A DNA stretch of 49,704 nucleotides, taken from assembly GCA_030647435.1 (NCBI GenBank), contig JAUSJX010000151.1:1-49704 (forward strand), in the 5' to 3' direction. The stretch is from Candidatus Rokuibacteriota bacterium (GTDB lineage Bacteria; Methylomirabilota; Methylomirabilia; Rokubacteriales; CSP1-6). Positions 6,760 to 12,223 of the stretch are shown piece by piece; the stretch's first letter is position 1; each line of letters starts with the position of its first letter. A program made the translations under genes and the position numbers. The notes beneath the pieces are model-generated. The model was given only the letters and a program-made list of their open reading frames with translations. It made no database searches and was not told the DNA's origin.

Positions 6760-7208
6760 GGCTTCCGGCGCTCCACCACGTGCTCGGTCTCGCCCTCCTG
6801 CACGACTTCGCCTTGCTGGTTGACGAGCCGCCGCTCCACCGTGACGAGGCCGCGGCCCGCGTCGGGCCCGTCCCTCTTGGCGGCGATGCGCGAGAGGACG
6901 AGCACGGTATCGCCGATCTTGATCGGGCCCTTGAACTTCCACTTGAGGCCGCTGAGAAGGCCGTGCGCCGCGGCGGGCTCTCCCCGCGAGGCCAGGCCCT
7001 GCTGGATGCCGAGGCCCAGGAGCCCGTGGGCGATCCGTTCGCCGAAGATGGAGGTCTTCATGTGCTCGGCGTCGGTGTGGAGCACGTTGTAGTCGCCGCT
7101 GAGCCCGGCGAAGATGACGATGTCAGCTTCGGTGACGGTCCTCCCGGGAGAGGTGTACTCCTGCCCGACGACGAAATCCTCGAAGAACACGCCCTCCTGG
7201 CCGCTCAC
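6756..7208 (-). CDS. MaoC-family (R)-enoyl-CoA hydratase
   Basis: At 150 residues it has a single hot-dog fold with an intact hydratase motif: SGDYNVLHTD (catalytic Asp and His about residues 38-43) and GERIAHGLLGLG. The C-terminal strand reads ERRLVNQQGEVVQEGE, which is nearly the same wording as its neighbour, so the two are paralogues from a duplication. It probably hydrates a trans-2-enoyl-CoA (or ACP) in the cytoplasm. It overlaps the upstream ATPase gene and the downstream hot-dog gene by 4 bases each. The substrate is unknown. Confidence 0.88.
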   Translation of the reverse strand: MSGQEGVFFEDFVVGQEYTSPGRTVTEADIVIFAGLSGDYNVLHTDAEHMKTSIFGERIAHGLLGLGIQQGLASRGEPAAAHGLLSGLKWKFKGPIKIGDTVLVLSRIAAKRDGPDAGRGLVTVERRLVNQQGEVVQEGETEHVVERRKP

Positions 7209-8194
7209 TCAAAGAGCTTCCCGGCCGCCTCGCGGAGCATGTCGACCCCTCGCACCTCCCGGTCGAACAGCGGCACGACGGCGCGCACGCTCCCGTCGAA
7301 TTTTTCCCAGATGGTCTTCATGTGTTCGTCCTGCATCTCCATGCGGTTGAGGACGAATTCGGGAACGTCCTTCCCGAGCGCCTGCCGGTCCAGCAGCATG
7401 TTCACGATCACGCCGCCCACCGGGATGCCGAAATCGTGGAACCAGCCGATGAAGCGGGTGATGACGGCGATGGGGAGGGCCTCGGGGAGCGTCACGAAGA
7501 AGAAGGCGGTCTGCTGGGCGTCGGTCAGGAGCAGGCGCGCCTGCCCCATGCGGGTGCGGAACTGGAGGAGGTACCGCAGGAGCGGGTCGTCCTCCTTCTT
7601 CTTGGTGAAGGAGAGCATCTCGCGGAGCGTGCGCGCCTCCTCCCGGGACTTGAGCATCTTGTCCACCCAGAGGGAGTAGACCTTGGACATACCGAGCAGG
7701 CGCCGGGCGTTGGCGGTAGGCGCGGTGTCGAACACGTAGACGTCGTACTCGTTCTTGAGCATCATGTCGACCATGTTCTCGAACATGGCCGACTCCTCGA
7801 AGGCGGGGTTCATGGTGGCGGATTCGACGAAGTCGTCGGCCTTGGTCGAGATGTCCGCGAACTTGAGGAACCACTGGATCTTGTCGCGGATGTCCTTCTT
7901 GGAGCGCTCGATGGTCTCCCGGGTGTCGATCTCGTAGGCCCAGAAATTGGGCACGCCGGTGATGGCGGCGTGGCCGCCCGACACGTCCTGCCCGAGGAGA
8001 CCGGAGAGGCTGTGGACCGGGTTGGTCGAAGCGAGCAGCGTCCGCCGGCCCTGCCCGGCGAGCCAGAGGGCGGCCGCCCCGGCCAGCGCGGTCTTGCCCA
8101 CGCCGCCCTTGCCGCCGAAGAAGAAGAACTTGAGCGAGGGGTGCTCCTGCAGGTAGGCGCGCATCGAGGTCGTGACGGCGGCTTGGGCGCTCAT
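7205..8194 (-). CDS. ArsA/Get3-type ATPase, second of a pair
   Basis: A 329-residue SIMIBI-class ATPase with the deviant Walker A GGKGGVGKTA at about 27-36. Switch I reads STNPVHS in place of canonical DPAHS, so the catalytic Asp is Asn. Switch II reads DTAPTANA in place of DTAPTGH and keeps the Asp and the APT core. ArsA moves arsenite and Get3 handles tail-anchored membrane proteins. No arsenite-binding cysteines and no ArsB, ArsC or ArsR are present, so an arsenic role is unlikely. It overlaps the partner ATPase by 4 bases (ATGA). I infer a heterodimer; see the finding on complementary motif loss. Confidence 0.88.
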   Translation of the reverse strand: MSAQAAVTTSMRAYLQEHPSLKFFFFGGKGGVGKTALAGAAALWLAGQGRRTLLASTNPVHSLSGLLGQDVSGGHAAITGVPNFWAYEIDTRETIERSKKDIRDKIQWFLKFADISTKADDFVESATMNPAFEESAMFENMVDMMLKNEYDVYVFDTAPTANARRLLGMSKVYSLWVDKMLKSREEARTLREMLSFTKKKEDDPLLRYLLQFRTRMGQARLLLTDAQQTAFFFVTLPEALPIAVITRFIGWFHDFGIPVGGVIVNMLLDRQALGKDVPEFVLNRMEMQDEHMKTIWEKFDGSVRAVVPLFDREVRGVDMLREAAGKLFE

Positions 8195-9177
8195 GCCTTC
8201 GGCCCCTCCTCGAAGAGCCGCTTCGCCAGGCGCTCGATCATCGGCAGCCCGGTGATGTCGCGCTCCATTTCCGGCACGTGGGCCAGGATCTGGGCGCCGA
8301 AGGTGGACTGGATCTCCTTCATGTACCGCTGCTGCATCGTGATCCGGTTCCTCAGGTACTCGGGGATGCGGCCCGCCCCGAGGTCCGGCGGCAGGACCCG
8401 GTTGACCACGTATCCAGAGAGGGGCACGTCGAACTTGGCGAACAGCTCCGCGGCTTTCTTCGTGTCGAGGATGATCATCTCCTCCGGCACCAGCACGAAG
8501 AAGAAGGCTGTGCGGCTCTTGTCGGTCAGGATGCGGGAGGAGGCGTTGATCCGCTCCTTGATGTAGAGGAGCTCGCTGAGGATCTTGTCCTCCTCCATGG
8601 TCTCCTCACGGCGCATCGTCGCCGCCACCTGGTCGTACTGGCGCATCTCCTCGCGGAGCTTGGTGATCTTGTTGATCCACTCGTCGTACACCTTAGCCAT
8701 GGACAGGTAGTACAGCGCGTGACCGAGCGGCACCAGGTCGTAGATGTAGTAGTCGTAGTCGCCCTGGACGATGATGTCCACGACGGCGTCGAAGATGGCG
8801 CTCTCCTCCATGGCGGGCTCGGCGGAGGCGGCGGCGATGTAGTTGTCGATCTCCTCGGGGACGCGGTCGAAACCGTACATGTCCAGGATCTTCTTGCGGA
8901 TCTCCTCCTGGTAGTCCTTGATCCGCCGGTCGGCGTCCACTTCCTGGGCCCAGAGGTTCTGCATGATCGGCACCGGGCCCTTGCCGAAGATATCCTTCTG
9001 GAAGATGTCCGAGAGGCTGGCCTGCGGATCGACGGAGAAGAGGAGGACGCGCTTGCCCTGGCTGGCCAGCCAGAAAGCGCAGGTGGCGGAGAGCGTGGTC
9101 TTCCCGAGCCCGCCCTTGCCGCCGAACATGATGTACCGCCGGTCCGGCTGGCTCTCGAACACGGTTCTGAGCGACAT
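8191..9177 (-). CDS. ArsA/Get3-type ATPase, first of a pair
   Basis: A 328-residue paralogue of the next gene. Walker A is GGKGGLGKTT (about 19-28). Switch I reads DPQAS, keeping the catalytic Asp but with His replaced. Switch II reads DLVPLGH in place of DTAPTGH. The ATG at 9177 is chosen because GGAAGGAGG lies 4-5 bases upstream; the longer frame to 9213 is not needed. Like its partner it lacks metalloid-binding Cys pairs. Sitting directly behind two small hydrophobic proteins, it could be their membrane-targeting or cargo ATPase, as Get3 is for tail-anchored proteins. This role is inference; mycobacterial paired ArsA-like proteins are a possible parallel. Confidence 0.88.
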   Translation of the reverse strand: MSLRTVFESQPDRRYIMFGGKGGLGKTTLSATCAFWLASQGKRVLLFSVDPQASLSDIFQKDIFGKGPVPIMQNLWAQEVDADRRIKDYQEEIRKKILDMYGFDRVPEEIDNYIAAASAEPAMEESAIFDAVVDIIVQGDYDYYIYDLVPLGHALYYLSMAKVYDEWINKITKLREEMRQYDQVAATMRREETMEEDKILSELLYIKERINASSRILTDKSRTAFFFVLVPEEMIILDTKKAAELFAKFDVPLSGYVVNRVLPPDLGAGRIPEYLRNRITMQQRYMKEIQSTFGAQILAHVPEMERDITGLPMIERLAKRLFEEGPKA

Positions 9178-9248
9178 GGTGCCTCCTTCCGAAGCCCGCC
9201 CCGCGGGCGTCATGGCGACTCGTGAGGGCCGGGTCTACCCGCCGAAAG

Positions 9249-9524
9249 CTATCCGAGGACGTCGGTGATGTCGCGCTCGCGGAGCATGCGGCGCTTCCAC
9301 GAGGCGATCTGGGGCGTCACGTACGGCAGGAGCCTCAGAGAGTAGTAGGGCGGCAGGATCGGGACTCCCAAGAGGTCGCCCATGGTGATGAGGATGAAGA
9401 GGTGCTCCATGCTCGCCCGCGAGCGGACGGCGTGGCGGGTCATCTCGTGGGAGGACATCCCGTACACGATGTCCTTGAACACGCTCAGGATCCCGCCCTT
9501 CTTGGGCTTCTTTTCGTCAGCCAT
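9249..9524 (-). CDS. Small GVPILPP-motif protein, copy 2
   Basis: A 91-residue protein of unknown family. A basic N-terminus (KKPKKGG) is followed by a conserved block (YGMSSHEMTRH) and one hydrophobic stretch, about residues 38-70, built around GDLLGVPILPP and YSLRLLPYV, then a basic tail (WKRRMLRERD). It is a close paralogue of the protein encoded 20 bases upstream. The proline-rich centre suggests a re-entrant hairpin or monotopic membrane anchor rather than a plain transmembrane helix. It precedes the two ATPases on the same strand, so partner or client of those ATPases is the simplest guess. I know no assigned function. Confidence 0.8.
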   Translation of the reverse strand: MADEKKPKKGGILSVFKDIVYGMSSHEMTRHAVRSRASMEHLFILITMGDLLGVPILPPYYSLRLLPYVTPQIASWKRRMLRERDITDVLG

Positions 9525-9544
9525 GGGCCTTTCCCTGTCTTGGA

Positions 9545-9841
9545 TTAGACACCGTGCATATCATACTCTTCCTTCTCCCAGTACTCCCGCCGCTTCGCCA
9601 TGTGGCGCTTCCACCTGGCGATCTCGGGCACTACATACGGCAGCAGGCGCAGCGAGTAGACGGGCGGCAGTATCGGCACGCCGATCAGGTCGCCGAGCGT
9701 GACGACCATGAAGACCGCCTCCAGCTGATGGCGCATCTCCAGCGCGTGACGGGCGAACTCGTGGCCCGTCATCCCGTACATGAACTGCTTGACCGCCTCC
9801 CAGCCGGCGGACAGACGGTGCGTGAACGGTCGAGTCGCCAT
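9545..9841 (-). CDS. Small GVPILPP-motif protein, copy 1
   Basis: A 98-residue protein that aligns with the downstream copy along its whole centre: YGM-T-G-HE, RHA, then GDLIGVPILPP and YSLRLLPYV, then WKRHM. The N-terminal 15 residues and the acidic tail (YWEKEEYDMHGV) differ. It has the same single proline-interrupted hydrophobic segment. Two copies followed by two ATPases suggests that each duplicated together and that the module works as a two-by-two complex. It begins a run of nine closely spaced minus-strand genes ending at ilvD. The family is unrecognised. Confidence 0.8.
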   Translation of the reverse strand: MATRPFTHRLSAGWEAVKQFMYGMTGHEFARHALEMRHQLEAVFMVVTLGDLIGVPILPPVYSLRLLPYVVPEIARWKRHMAKRREYWEKEEYDMHGV

Positions 9842-9922: not shown

Positions 9923-11716
9923 CTACCCGCCCGCGGGCGCGGCCTTCGGCGCGGGCGTCGGCCGGCGCAGATACTTCATGAAGGCGCGCCAGCCGTCAAT
10001 CCCGATGAATACCGCTGCGACCACGAGCAGCAGCGCCACCAGGACCATGAGCCCCGAGCCGACCATGGGCAGCATGCGGCCGGCCTCCCGGTTGGGCTGG
10101 TAGACGTTGAAGTAAACGTTGTAGGCGGTCACCAAGAGCGAGGCCACCGTGGTGACGTACATGAAGATCATCGGCAGCCCGGCGTAGAGCCAGTTCTTTC
10201 CCACGGACGCCAGCCACACCGTCACCAGCAAGAGCGACAGCGCAGCCATGAGCTGGTTGGCGCCGCCGAAGAGCTGCCAGAGATACACCCACGTCCCCGT
10301 CACCACCAGCAGGAGGGCCAGCAGGACGCAGATGATCGAGGACACGTGTTGGTTGCGGCAGGGCGGGATGACGTCGCCCAGCCACTCGGTGAGAGTGATG
10401 CGCATGACCCGGAAGATGAGCTGGGTGACCACGAGCACGATCACGATGAACGCCGCGAAGGCAAGCGACACGGCGTACTGGATCGGAACGCCCCAGACGC
10501 TGATGAAGCCGCCGAGCCCGTTGGCGAAGGCGCCGACAGGAGCGCCCTTGGCGCCAACCGACACGGCCAGCAGGGCGAGCAGCCCGAGCAGGAACTCGGT
10601 GAACATGGAGCCGCCGCCCACCGGCAGCATGTCAGCCTCGTTCTCGATCTGCCGCGCCGTGCCCACCGCGCCGAACAGCGCGTGCCAGCCCGAGATCGCG
10701 CCGCAGGCGATGGTCACGAACAGCATGGGCCACAGCGGCATGATGCCCGCCGGCCCGAGCTGGGGATTGAAGCCCTTGAAGGCCGGGATCTGGAACTGGG
10801 CGACCTCCGGCTTGATGAAGCTCGCCATGGCGGCGCCGCCCAGGCCGAGCACCATGGAGAGCGCGGTGATCCAGAAGCCCACGTAGACCACTGGCTGGGC
10901 CATGCGCCAGATGGGAAGAACCGAGCCGGCGTAGCAGAAGACGGAGATCGCGATGGCCCAGAAGAGGAGGCTCGGCATGATCTTGGCCTCGGCCCCCTTG
11001 AAACCGGCCAGCGTCGGGTCGAAGTACGTGACCAGCGGCGCGCCGCCGGTGAGCCCATTGAGCCAGCTGTTGAGCCCTTGGAAGGCGGGCTCGCTCCACG
11101 GGCCCGACATGATCGCCACGAGGGTGACACCGACGGTAAGGAGCGTGGCGCCCACCAGCCCCGTCTTCCACCGGTAGAGCATCTGGCCCAGCAGGAGCCC
11201 CATGGCGACCAGCATGATGATGCCGAAGTGGGTCCGCGGCTGTGAGTCCATCACCTGCGCCATGATGCTGACGAAGGCGCCGGTCACCAGCATGAGATAG
11301 AAGAAGATGAAGAGCAGCAGCAAGATCCGCGTGCGGGAGGAGACCAGCCGGTGCGCGATGGCGGACAGGCTGTTGCCCTCGTTCCGCACCGAGATCACGA
11401 TGGCGCTGTAGTCGCTGGCCCAGCCGATGAACGAGACCCCCAGCACCAGCCAGATGATGGACGGCAGCCACCCCCAAAGGGTCGCGGCCACGATGGCGCC
11501 CACGATAGGCCCGGCGGCCGCGATGGACTTGAAGTGGTAGCCGAAGAGGATGTTGCGGTTGGTCGGCATGAAGTCTACGCCGTCCATGTACAGCGTGGCC
11601 GGCGTGGCCCGCTTGGGATCCGACTGGATCACGTTGCGGTCGATCCGGCGGGCGTAGAGCGTGTACGCGAGGTACACGGTCACGGCCCCGATGATTACGG
11701 CCAGCAGAGTGTTCAT
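9923..11716 (-). CDS. cstA: Carbon starvation protein CstA, peptide/pyruvate transporter
   Basis: A 597-residue inner-membrane protein with about 15-16 hydrophobic segments. The CstA N-terminal signature is present: LYARRIDRNVI, TLYMDGVDFMPTNRNILFGYHFKSIAAAGPIVG, and WLVLGVSFIGWASDYSAI. Family members take up peptides or pyruvate under carbon limitation. The length is between the 480- and 700-residue forms. The start ATG 11716 has AAGGAG 8-10 bases upstream, and the longer frame to 11755 has no support. It lies 105 bases after the probable selenoprotein gene on the same strand. The usual small partner (YbdD type) is not seen beside it. Confidence 0.93.
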   Translation of the reverse strand: MNTLLAVIIGAVTVYLAYTLYARRIDRNVIQSDPKRATPATLYMDGVDFMPTNRNILFGYHFKSIAAAGPIVGAIVAATLWGWLPSIIWLVLGVSFIGWASDYSAIVISVRNEGNSLSAIAHRLVSSRTRILLLLFIFFYLMLVTGAFVSIMAQVMDSQPRTHFGIIMLVAMGLLLGQMLYRWKTGLVGATLLTVGVTLVAIMSGPWSEPAFQGLNSWLNGLTGGAPLVTYFDPTLAGFKGAEAKIMPSLLFWAIAISVFCYAGSVLPIWRMAQPVVYVGFWITALSMVLGLGGAAMASFIKPEVAQFQIPAFKGFNPQLGPAGIMPLWPMLFVTIACGAISGWHALFGAVGTARQIENEADMLPVGGGSMFTEFLLGLLALLAVSVGAKGAPVGAFANGLGGFISVWGVPIQYAVSLAFAAFIVIVLVVTQLIFRVMRITLTEWLGDVIPPCRNQHVSSIICVLLALLLVVTGTWVYLWQLFGGANQLMAALSLLLVTVWLASVGKNWLYAGLPMIFMYVTTVASLLVTAYNVYFNVYQPNREAGRMLPMVGSGLMVLVALLLVVAAVFIGIDGWRAFMKYLRRPTPAPKAAPAGG

Positions 11717-11821: not shown

Positions 11822-12223
11822 TCACGGTCCCGGCTGCCGGGCTGCCAGGCTCTCCGAGATCAGGGAATCCACCTTGGCGAAATCGTTCCCCACGTACTTC
11901 CTGCTGTCGACGATGAATGCGGGGTACCGGTTGAAACCACGAACCAGACATTTGAAGAAGCCTTCGATGGAAGCGGCATCCACGAGCCGGACCGTCACCC
12001 GCGATCCGTACCGGTGAGGCAGCCCGTGGGCCCACTGGGAAAGGGAATGGAATTCGGCCGCGAGGTCGTCCGGGAGCCCGGCGTCGAGCTGCTCCCTGTG
12101 GACCTTCTGACCCAGCCCGGCGACCTGCCAGGTCACCTCGCAGTGCTGTCAATGCTGGAAGTGGGTTGGGACGTATGTGATGACTTCGACGCGGAGCGGC
12201 CGATCGCGGGCGACACTGCCCAT
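11822..12223 (-). CDS. Probable selenoprotein, thioredoxin-fold with U-x-x-C
   Basis: Read from ATG 12223 the frame is 133 residues with one internal TGA at 12151-12149 (residue 25). Coding resumes at once with QHCEVTW. Reading the TGA as selenocysteine gives a beta strand (LRVEVITYVP), a U-x-x-C redox motif, helices, a second strand (VTVRLVDAAS) and a cis-proline strand (RYPAFIVD), which is a thioredoxin layout. Start support is an AGGGGG about 8 bases upstream. A 7-bp hairpin sits 11 bases past the TGA. The conventional alternative is a 104-residue protein from GTG 12136, which would lack strand 1 and the redox motif. A nonsense-mutated Cys codon (TGC/TGT to TGA) is the other option. It lies upstream of cstA on the same strand. 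The redox substrate is unknown. Confidence 0.7.
12119..12137 (-). promoter_or_regulatory. Candidate bacterial SECIS hairpin
   Basis: On the minus strand GGTGACC and GGTCGCC pair (7 bp, one G-U) around a 5-nt loop TGGCA. The apical loop begins 19 bases after the in-frame TGA and has G at its second position. Published descriptions of bacterial SECIS elements ask for a loop about 16-37 nt downstream with a G in its first two bases, so both conditions hold. Confidence 0.55.

Follow-up and report, generated by a model that had tools for sequence, protein, structure and literature searches.

A predicted thioredoxin-like selenoprotein encoded beside cstA in the Rokubacteria/Methylomirabilota group

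We describe selX, a predicted selenoprotein gene on the reverse strand of a 49,704-nucleotide stretch of Candidatus Rokuibacteriota DNA (contig JAUSJX010000151.1, assembly GCA_030647435.1), hereafter the window. The explanation we favor, at a probability of roughly 0.8, is that selX is a real selenoprotein gene encoding a cytosolic oxidoreductase, with the CstA transport system as its dedicated client. An earlier note, made from the letters of the window, had read the gene as a probable selenoprotein, and this reading is supported: the selenocysteine machinery, a column of Sec and Cys among homologues, conserved flanks and the geometry of a bacterial SECIS (bSECIS) hairpin all agree with it. 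The features discussed below are collected in Table 1.

Table 1. Features of the selX-cstA block in the window.
Feature	Position	Strand	Remarks
selX, predicted thioredoxin-like selenoprotein, 133 aa	11822..12223	(-)	ATG 12223, Sec codon 25, stop TGA 11824-11822
UGA codon 25 (predicted Sec), opening the U-x-x-C motif HUQHC	12149..12151	(-)	TGA in 21 genes, TGC in 3 relatives
SECIS hairpin register 1, predicted	12119..12137	(-)	8 bp, loop GGC, loop 19 nt past UGA
SECIS hairpin register 2, alternative	12116..12132	(-)	6 bp, loop AGGUC, loop 22 nt past UGA; top-scoring in 9/21 genes
cstA, carbon-starvation/pyruvate-peptide transporter family	9923..11716	(-)	PF02554; 105 nt downstream of selX
smallA, 98 aa, without Pfam match, paralogue of smallB	9545..9841	(-)	block member
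smallB, 91 aa, without Pfam match	9249..9524	(-)	genome distribution nearly that of selX/cstA
ArsA1, ArsA-family ATPase	8191..9213	(-)	PF02374
ArsA2, second ArsA-family ATPase	7205..8194	(-)	PF02374

The UGA codon and its homologues

The single interruption of the selX frame is the TGA at codon 25, which is read locally as THFQH-U-QHCEV and more widely as MGSVARDRPLRVEVITYVPTHFQH-U-QHCEVTWQVAGLGQ. As the earlier note had described, the frame is otherwise open. It runs from an ATG preceded by the purine-rich stretch AGAGGGGG down to a stop behind the C-terminal residues QPGP. The placement of the TGA at the first position of a C-x-x-C motif was likewise borne out, since HUQHC in the window corresponds to HCQHC in relatives. 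Ordinary gene calling had been expected to miss or truncate the gene, and the list of open reading frames indeed gives only a truncated 104-aa frame from GTG 12136.

A search of 195 related genomes returned homologues in 19 other Methylomirabilota genomes. With the window's own genome counted, 21 genes in 19 genomes carry a TGA in frame at the identical codon, and three relatives have TGC (Cys) in its place, which gives the U/C column. Two of these Cys genes, L028 (G081) and L031 (G091), belong to a distant clade, and the third, L040, is a close relative whose product shares 68% identity with the window protein. None of the 21 TGA genes contains a frameshift or an additional stop. Differences between family members favor third codon positions both upstream (901/1592) and downstream of the UGA (524/1003 and 6851/13423), and single-base codon differences are mostly synonymous on both sides. 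The flanks of the TGA are conserved as protein, so that the scrambled frame which the earlier note had named as a sign against selenocysteine is not what relatives contain.

No further members came out when 95 genomes of the phylum were searched with the family profile, and in a scan of ~85,000 species genomes all of the matches were labelled Rokubacteria/Methylomirabilota, except for L040, which is labelled Deltaproteobacteria. The carriers in the Rokubacteria/Methylomirabilota group are soil and groundwater bacteria. When the family profile was run on 388 genomes outward from the window, three further weak matches appeared and none was accepted as family: L079 and L080 are membrane-anchored thioredoxin-like proteins that match over 46-53 positions only, and the third is a long open reading frame resembling GidA/MnmG. 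A search of plasmids for selX gave no match.

The Cys gene of L040 (5792-6184) lies beside a 79%-identical cstA, and the SelB of its genome is only ~48% identical to Rokubacterial SelB. Either the whole block was transferred horizontally or the contig was misbinned. Loss of the Sec machinery as the origin of this Cys is ruled out by the presence of selB in the same genome.

Several loci depart from the single-copy arrangement. In L034 (G019) and L037 (G031), tandem selX pairs lie upstream of cstA; both copies have the TGA, and the second copies read HURRCEITWQ. Behind cstA in L048:445-1223 (G091), one Cys-encoding and one Sec-encoding copy stand in tandem. At L127:250-640 (G081), a TGA copy behind the Cys form has apparently lost the stretch after the UGA, with its frame shifted, and would represent either a decayed gene or an assembly error. 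Finally, the selX at L043:8001-8363 (G040) is unlinked from cstA and is devoid of the resolving Cys (URHR), which possibly reflects a changed function.

The genome of the window encodes all four components of the selenocysteine machinery that the earlier note had named as a check. Its selC is a tRNA-Sec scoring 71.3 bits with a UCA anticodon, and it lies within 5 kb of selA (583.7 bits) and selB (380.2 bits) on contig C56. The selD gene is found on contig C98 (G000:C98:94090-95046, L076) and itself has an in-frame TGA, at ...CAG-U-ASK; selD genes of this kind are a known selenoprotein type. In the 19 other selX genomes, tRNA-Sec scored over the cut-off in 16 and SelB was found in 16. Both are missing from G036 (77% complete) and G091 (76% complete), the G013 assembly is short of tRNA-Sec only, and in G029 SelB is represented by a fragment lying where a contig ends. 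Because SelB is present in nearly all genomes of the family, its co-occurrence with selX is required but uninformative.

Could the codon nonetheless be an ordinary stop, with selX either decayed or made up of two units, a short peptide and, behind it, an independent 104-aa protein? A 104-aa open reading frame does exist, and TGA also serves as a normal stop in this genome, selX itself included. However, the 21 genes free of frameshifts and other stops, the conservation of both flanks as one protein, and the Cys that replaces the TGA in three relatives make this very improbable. Still less credible is the idea that the lineage has reassigned TGA, to Trp or Cys for instance, with no involvement of selenium. 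Such a code would leave the frame open, but selX terminates with TGA, its homologues have Cys rather than Trp at the position, and a full Sec system with a UCA-anticodon tRNA-Sec is present. Protein-level conservation on both flanks, the gene's own TGA stop and the Cys relatives together lead us to reject a real stop, decay and a reassigned code, and from these comparisons of sequence we regard it as almost certain that codon 25 specifies selenocysteine.

A hairpin behind the UGA

The published criteria for a bacterial SECIS element are a stem of 4-16 bp, a loop of 3-9 nt with a G in its first two bases, and a UGA-to-loop distance of 16-37 nt (PMC13188914). The hairpin that the earlier note had pointed out, of 7 bp with its loop 19 nt past the UGA, is present: it begins 11 nt after the UGA, has 8 bp here (7 bp without the outer pair) and carries a G first in the loop (ggtgacct-GGC-aggtcgcc). 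An alternative register, cctggc-AGGTC-gccggg, is formed from the same bases. Judged by the published geometry, the region fits a bSECIS, and so do all 21 of the TGA genes, related by descent and hence not independent counts, with stems of 6-9 bp and loops that lie 19, 20 or 22 nt beyond the UGA. Because the two overlapping registers fit different subsets of the genes, no single SECIS consensus emerged.

The hairpins of the 21 TGA genes have energies of -6.9 to -12.9 kcal/mol (-11.3 in the window), and those of the three Cys genes, at -0.4, -4.3 and -5.2 kcal/mol, are weak or absent. Relative to the bSECIS guideline of -7.5 kcal/mol, 10 of the 21 isolated hairpins are at or below it and the other 11 fall at -6.9 to -7.4, and the whole 45-nt segments behind the UGA all fold at -12 or below. 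These values have to be read with the caveat that G+C-rich RNA folds readily regardless: taken by itself, the window segment has an unexceptional fold (z -1.5), and over 45 nt even the Cys gene of L040 reaches -18.6.

When synonymous codons were shuffled gene by gene, the mean was -5.3 (sd 0.6) versus the observed -8.5, and 0 of 300 shuffles were as low. Nowhere in the gene is synonymous variation lower than across codons +5, +6, +8 and +9, and codons +5 to +9 are nearly invariant synonymously; among genes that keep the residue, the codon is ACC in 19/19, CAG in 18/18 and GTC in 16/17 cases. L040 illustrates this best: the protein near the site is almost unchanged (YYHCQHCEVTWQ), yet codon changes abolish the hairpin. 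The case for a SECIS element, itself a prediction from sequence, is carried by this comparative evidence rather than by the fold of the window.

The SelX protein and the cstA block

A model of SelX built with 23 sequences is of moderate confidence (pLDDT 74, pTM 0.67). Its predicted order, strand-helix-(helices)-strand-helix-strand-strand-helix, is that of thioredoxin-like proteins; a helix (residues 26-35) begins right after U25, and the invariant Pro101 stands right before a strand (residues 102-105). The best Foldseek matches in the PDB are thioredoxins, with E ~0.01 (best 0.0095, probability 1.00), probabilities of 0.9-1.0 and query-normalised TM scores of 0.34-0.49. Searches of Pfam, NCBIfam and PDB sequences, both with SelX alone and with the family, gave chance matches only. 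The thioredoxin fold with its Pro-strand, which the earlier note had recognized, is supported to the extent that a moderate-confidence model and Foldseek allow, without sequence-family matches, and the likeness of SelX to thioredoxin is on this modelling a fold assignment rather than family membership.

Invariant or near-invariant residues of the family are H24, C/U25, H27, C28, E29, P51, D82, G88, P101 and F103. We consider it highly probable that SelX is a thiol/selenol oxidoreductase. Because no signal peptide is apparent at its N-terminus, we infer a cytosolic location.

The position of selX upstream of cstA, which the earlier note had given, holds in the window (selX stop at 11822, cstA ATG at 11716) and recurs across the family of genomes to which the window belongs (f1). 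A cstA orthologue with at least 78% identity is found in 17/17 selX genomes of f1, and in 15 of these selX lies directly upstream of it on the same strand. The exceptions are G052, where selX and cstA are at contig ends, and G040, where they are on different contigs. Only G025 has a cstA orthologue without selX, and this is a fragment whose upstream side is cut by a contig end. The other 39 f1 genomes have neither selX nor a cstA orthologue, G021 having a diverged cstA (~36% identity). The co-occurrence of the two genes in f1 gives a Fisher p of 1.3e-13, a value without correction for descent. In a distant clade, f9, selX again adjoins cstA, but on its downstream side, and the cstA concerned is 43-49% identical.

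The remaining genes of the block, namely smallA, smallB and both ArsA genes, have nearly the same genome distribution as selX and cstA, so SelX could serve those instead. In f9 they are on other contigs than selX-cstA. Paralogues of smallA/smallB (9249-9841 in the window) are found in f9 near apparent ABC-transporter permease genes (L125:9454-9729 and L131:6285-6539), and for this reason these small proteins may be general transporter accessories. In G036 (L047:8434-10159), cstA is present as two adjoining pieces with a short stretch missing between them, owing to a frameshift, a deletion or an assembly error.

Two other views of SelX accept that it is a selenoprotein. It could be a general-purpose thioredoxin-like reductase whose adjacency to cstA reflects shared regulation or inheritance as a block. 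A comparison of CstA proteins found no cysteine pair private to SelX-associated CstA that might be a disulfide target, other block genes have much the same distribution, and G040 keeps selX apart from cstA; all of this agrees with such a general role. Against it, f9 couples selX to the 43-49% identical cstA in the opposite gene order and without smallB or the ArsA genes alongside, and even G040 retains both selX and cstA. We judge a general reductase unlikely. Alternatively, SelX could work with the two ArsA-family ATPases in handling metalloids or selenium, much as the arsenic chaperone ArsD, also of thioredoxin fold, partners ArsA. Two such ATPases do lie downstream in the same block, and selX genomes generally retain the pair. 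But in f9 the ArsA pair and smallB are elsewhere and selX has stayed with cstA, no ArsD family match was found in SelX, and SelX is laid out like an oxidoreductase, with its UxxC where helix 1 begins and an invariant Pro ahead of strand 3. This reading is more doubtful still than a general reductase.

In our estimation SelX is most likely a UxxC oxidoreductase of the cytosol that serves the CstA system specifically; of the parts of this reading, the tie to CstA is the less firm, being favored only somewhat over its absence. SelB and tRNA-Sec would read UGA 25 as selenocysteine, the selenolate of SelX would attack a disulfide or another oxidised group, and the cysteine of the UxxC motif would resolve the intermediate. 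The client would belong to the CstA transport system, as CstA itself or as its imported substrate; given that a SelX-specific cysteine pair in CstA was not found, that substrate or a neighbouring protein is an equally plausible client. Coupled as it is to cstA in presence, absence and gene neighbourhood, selX is a selenoprotein gene with a partner. The Sec-encoding selX and its 68%-identical Cys relative in L040, each beside the same operon, also offer a natural pair for comparing Sec with Cys.

Relation to known selenoproteins and CstA partners

SelX matches no family among the NCBIfam release 20 models, and no entry in Table 1 of a May 2026 review fits it; the model comparison covered those entries that have a domain model beyond a CDD or PANTHER identifier. 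Its novelty holds against Pfam, NCBIfam release 20 and that table, and within these catalogues SelX is a new family among thioredoxin-like UxxC selenoproteins, with its link to CstA as the distinctive trait. It adds a selenoprotein family missing from the profile libraries checked. The phylum concerned is uncultured, and the 2026 review credits it with the largest bacterial selenoproteome reported so far (PMC13188914). A Methylomirabilota genome with 63 predicted selenoproteins was described in a 2026 groundwater study (Deng et al., as cited in PMC13188914), and selX may already stand in the tables of that study without a name.

Other catalogued UxxC selenoproteins with thioredoxin-like character are the HUIPC-motif protein (NF047660), SaoT (NF040730), GOS_C (NF045500), DsbA-like proteins and the thiol:disulfide interchange protein; like SelX, they are mostly bioinformatic predictions. 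Their models gave no match to SelX at E up to 1 and none to the 23 family members at E up to 0.1. With thioredoxin (PF00085) and Sec-containing thioredoxins SelX shares the predicted fold, the U/C-x-x-C at the start of helix 1 and the Pro before strand 3. It differs from them in having no PF00085, other Pfam or NCBIfam match, in its linkage to cstA, in its HUxHC motif, and in a helical insertion (~residues 36-75) that separates helix 1 from the strand after it. The ArsD/ArsA pair offers another likeness, a thioredoxin-fold partner encoded near ArsA-family ATPases. ArsD uses vicinal cysteines, whereas SelX has UxxC, is without an ArsD family match and has lost its ArsA linkage in f9.

A functional parallel may be offered by an unrelated protein. 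CstA-dependent pyruvate uptake in E. coli needs the small protein YbdD (PMC5847655), and YbdD belongs to the DUF466 or "KCU-star" family (NF033934, PF04328), which includes selenoproteins (PMC13188914, PMC9312934). E. coli YbdD ends in RCC (Cys-Cys), and DUF466 proteins of other bacteria end in Cys-Sec. No DUF466/YbdD partner (PF04328) was found among the 95 genomes of the phylum searched, and SelX may substitute for partners of this type; by analogy, this suggests that SelX could fill a role comparable to that of YbdD. If so, what the partners of CstA do becomes testable as a redox question. More tentatively, CstA-type transporters might repeatedly be paired with a small Sec/Cys redox partner that gates or powers uptake. 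SelX would then be a selenium-dependent transporter subunit, and two unrelated proteins would have converged on one role. Both are small proteins encoded beside cstA, with Sec in some bacteria in the case of KCU-star, but SelX gives no match to the PF04328 or NF033934 profiles, is unrelated to KCU-star in sequence and size, and carries UxxC in place of the C-terminal Sec/Cys tail.
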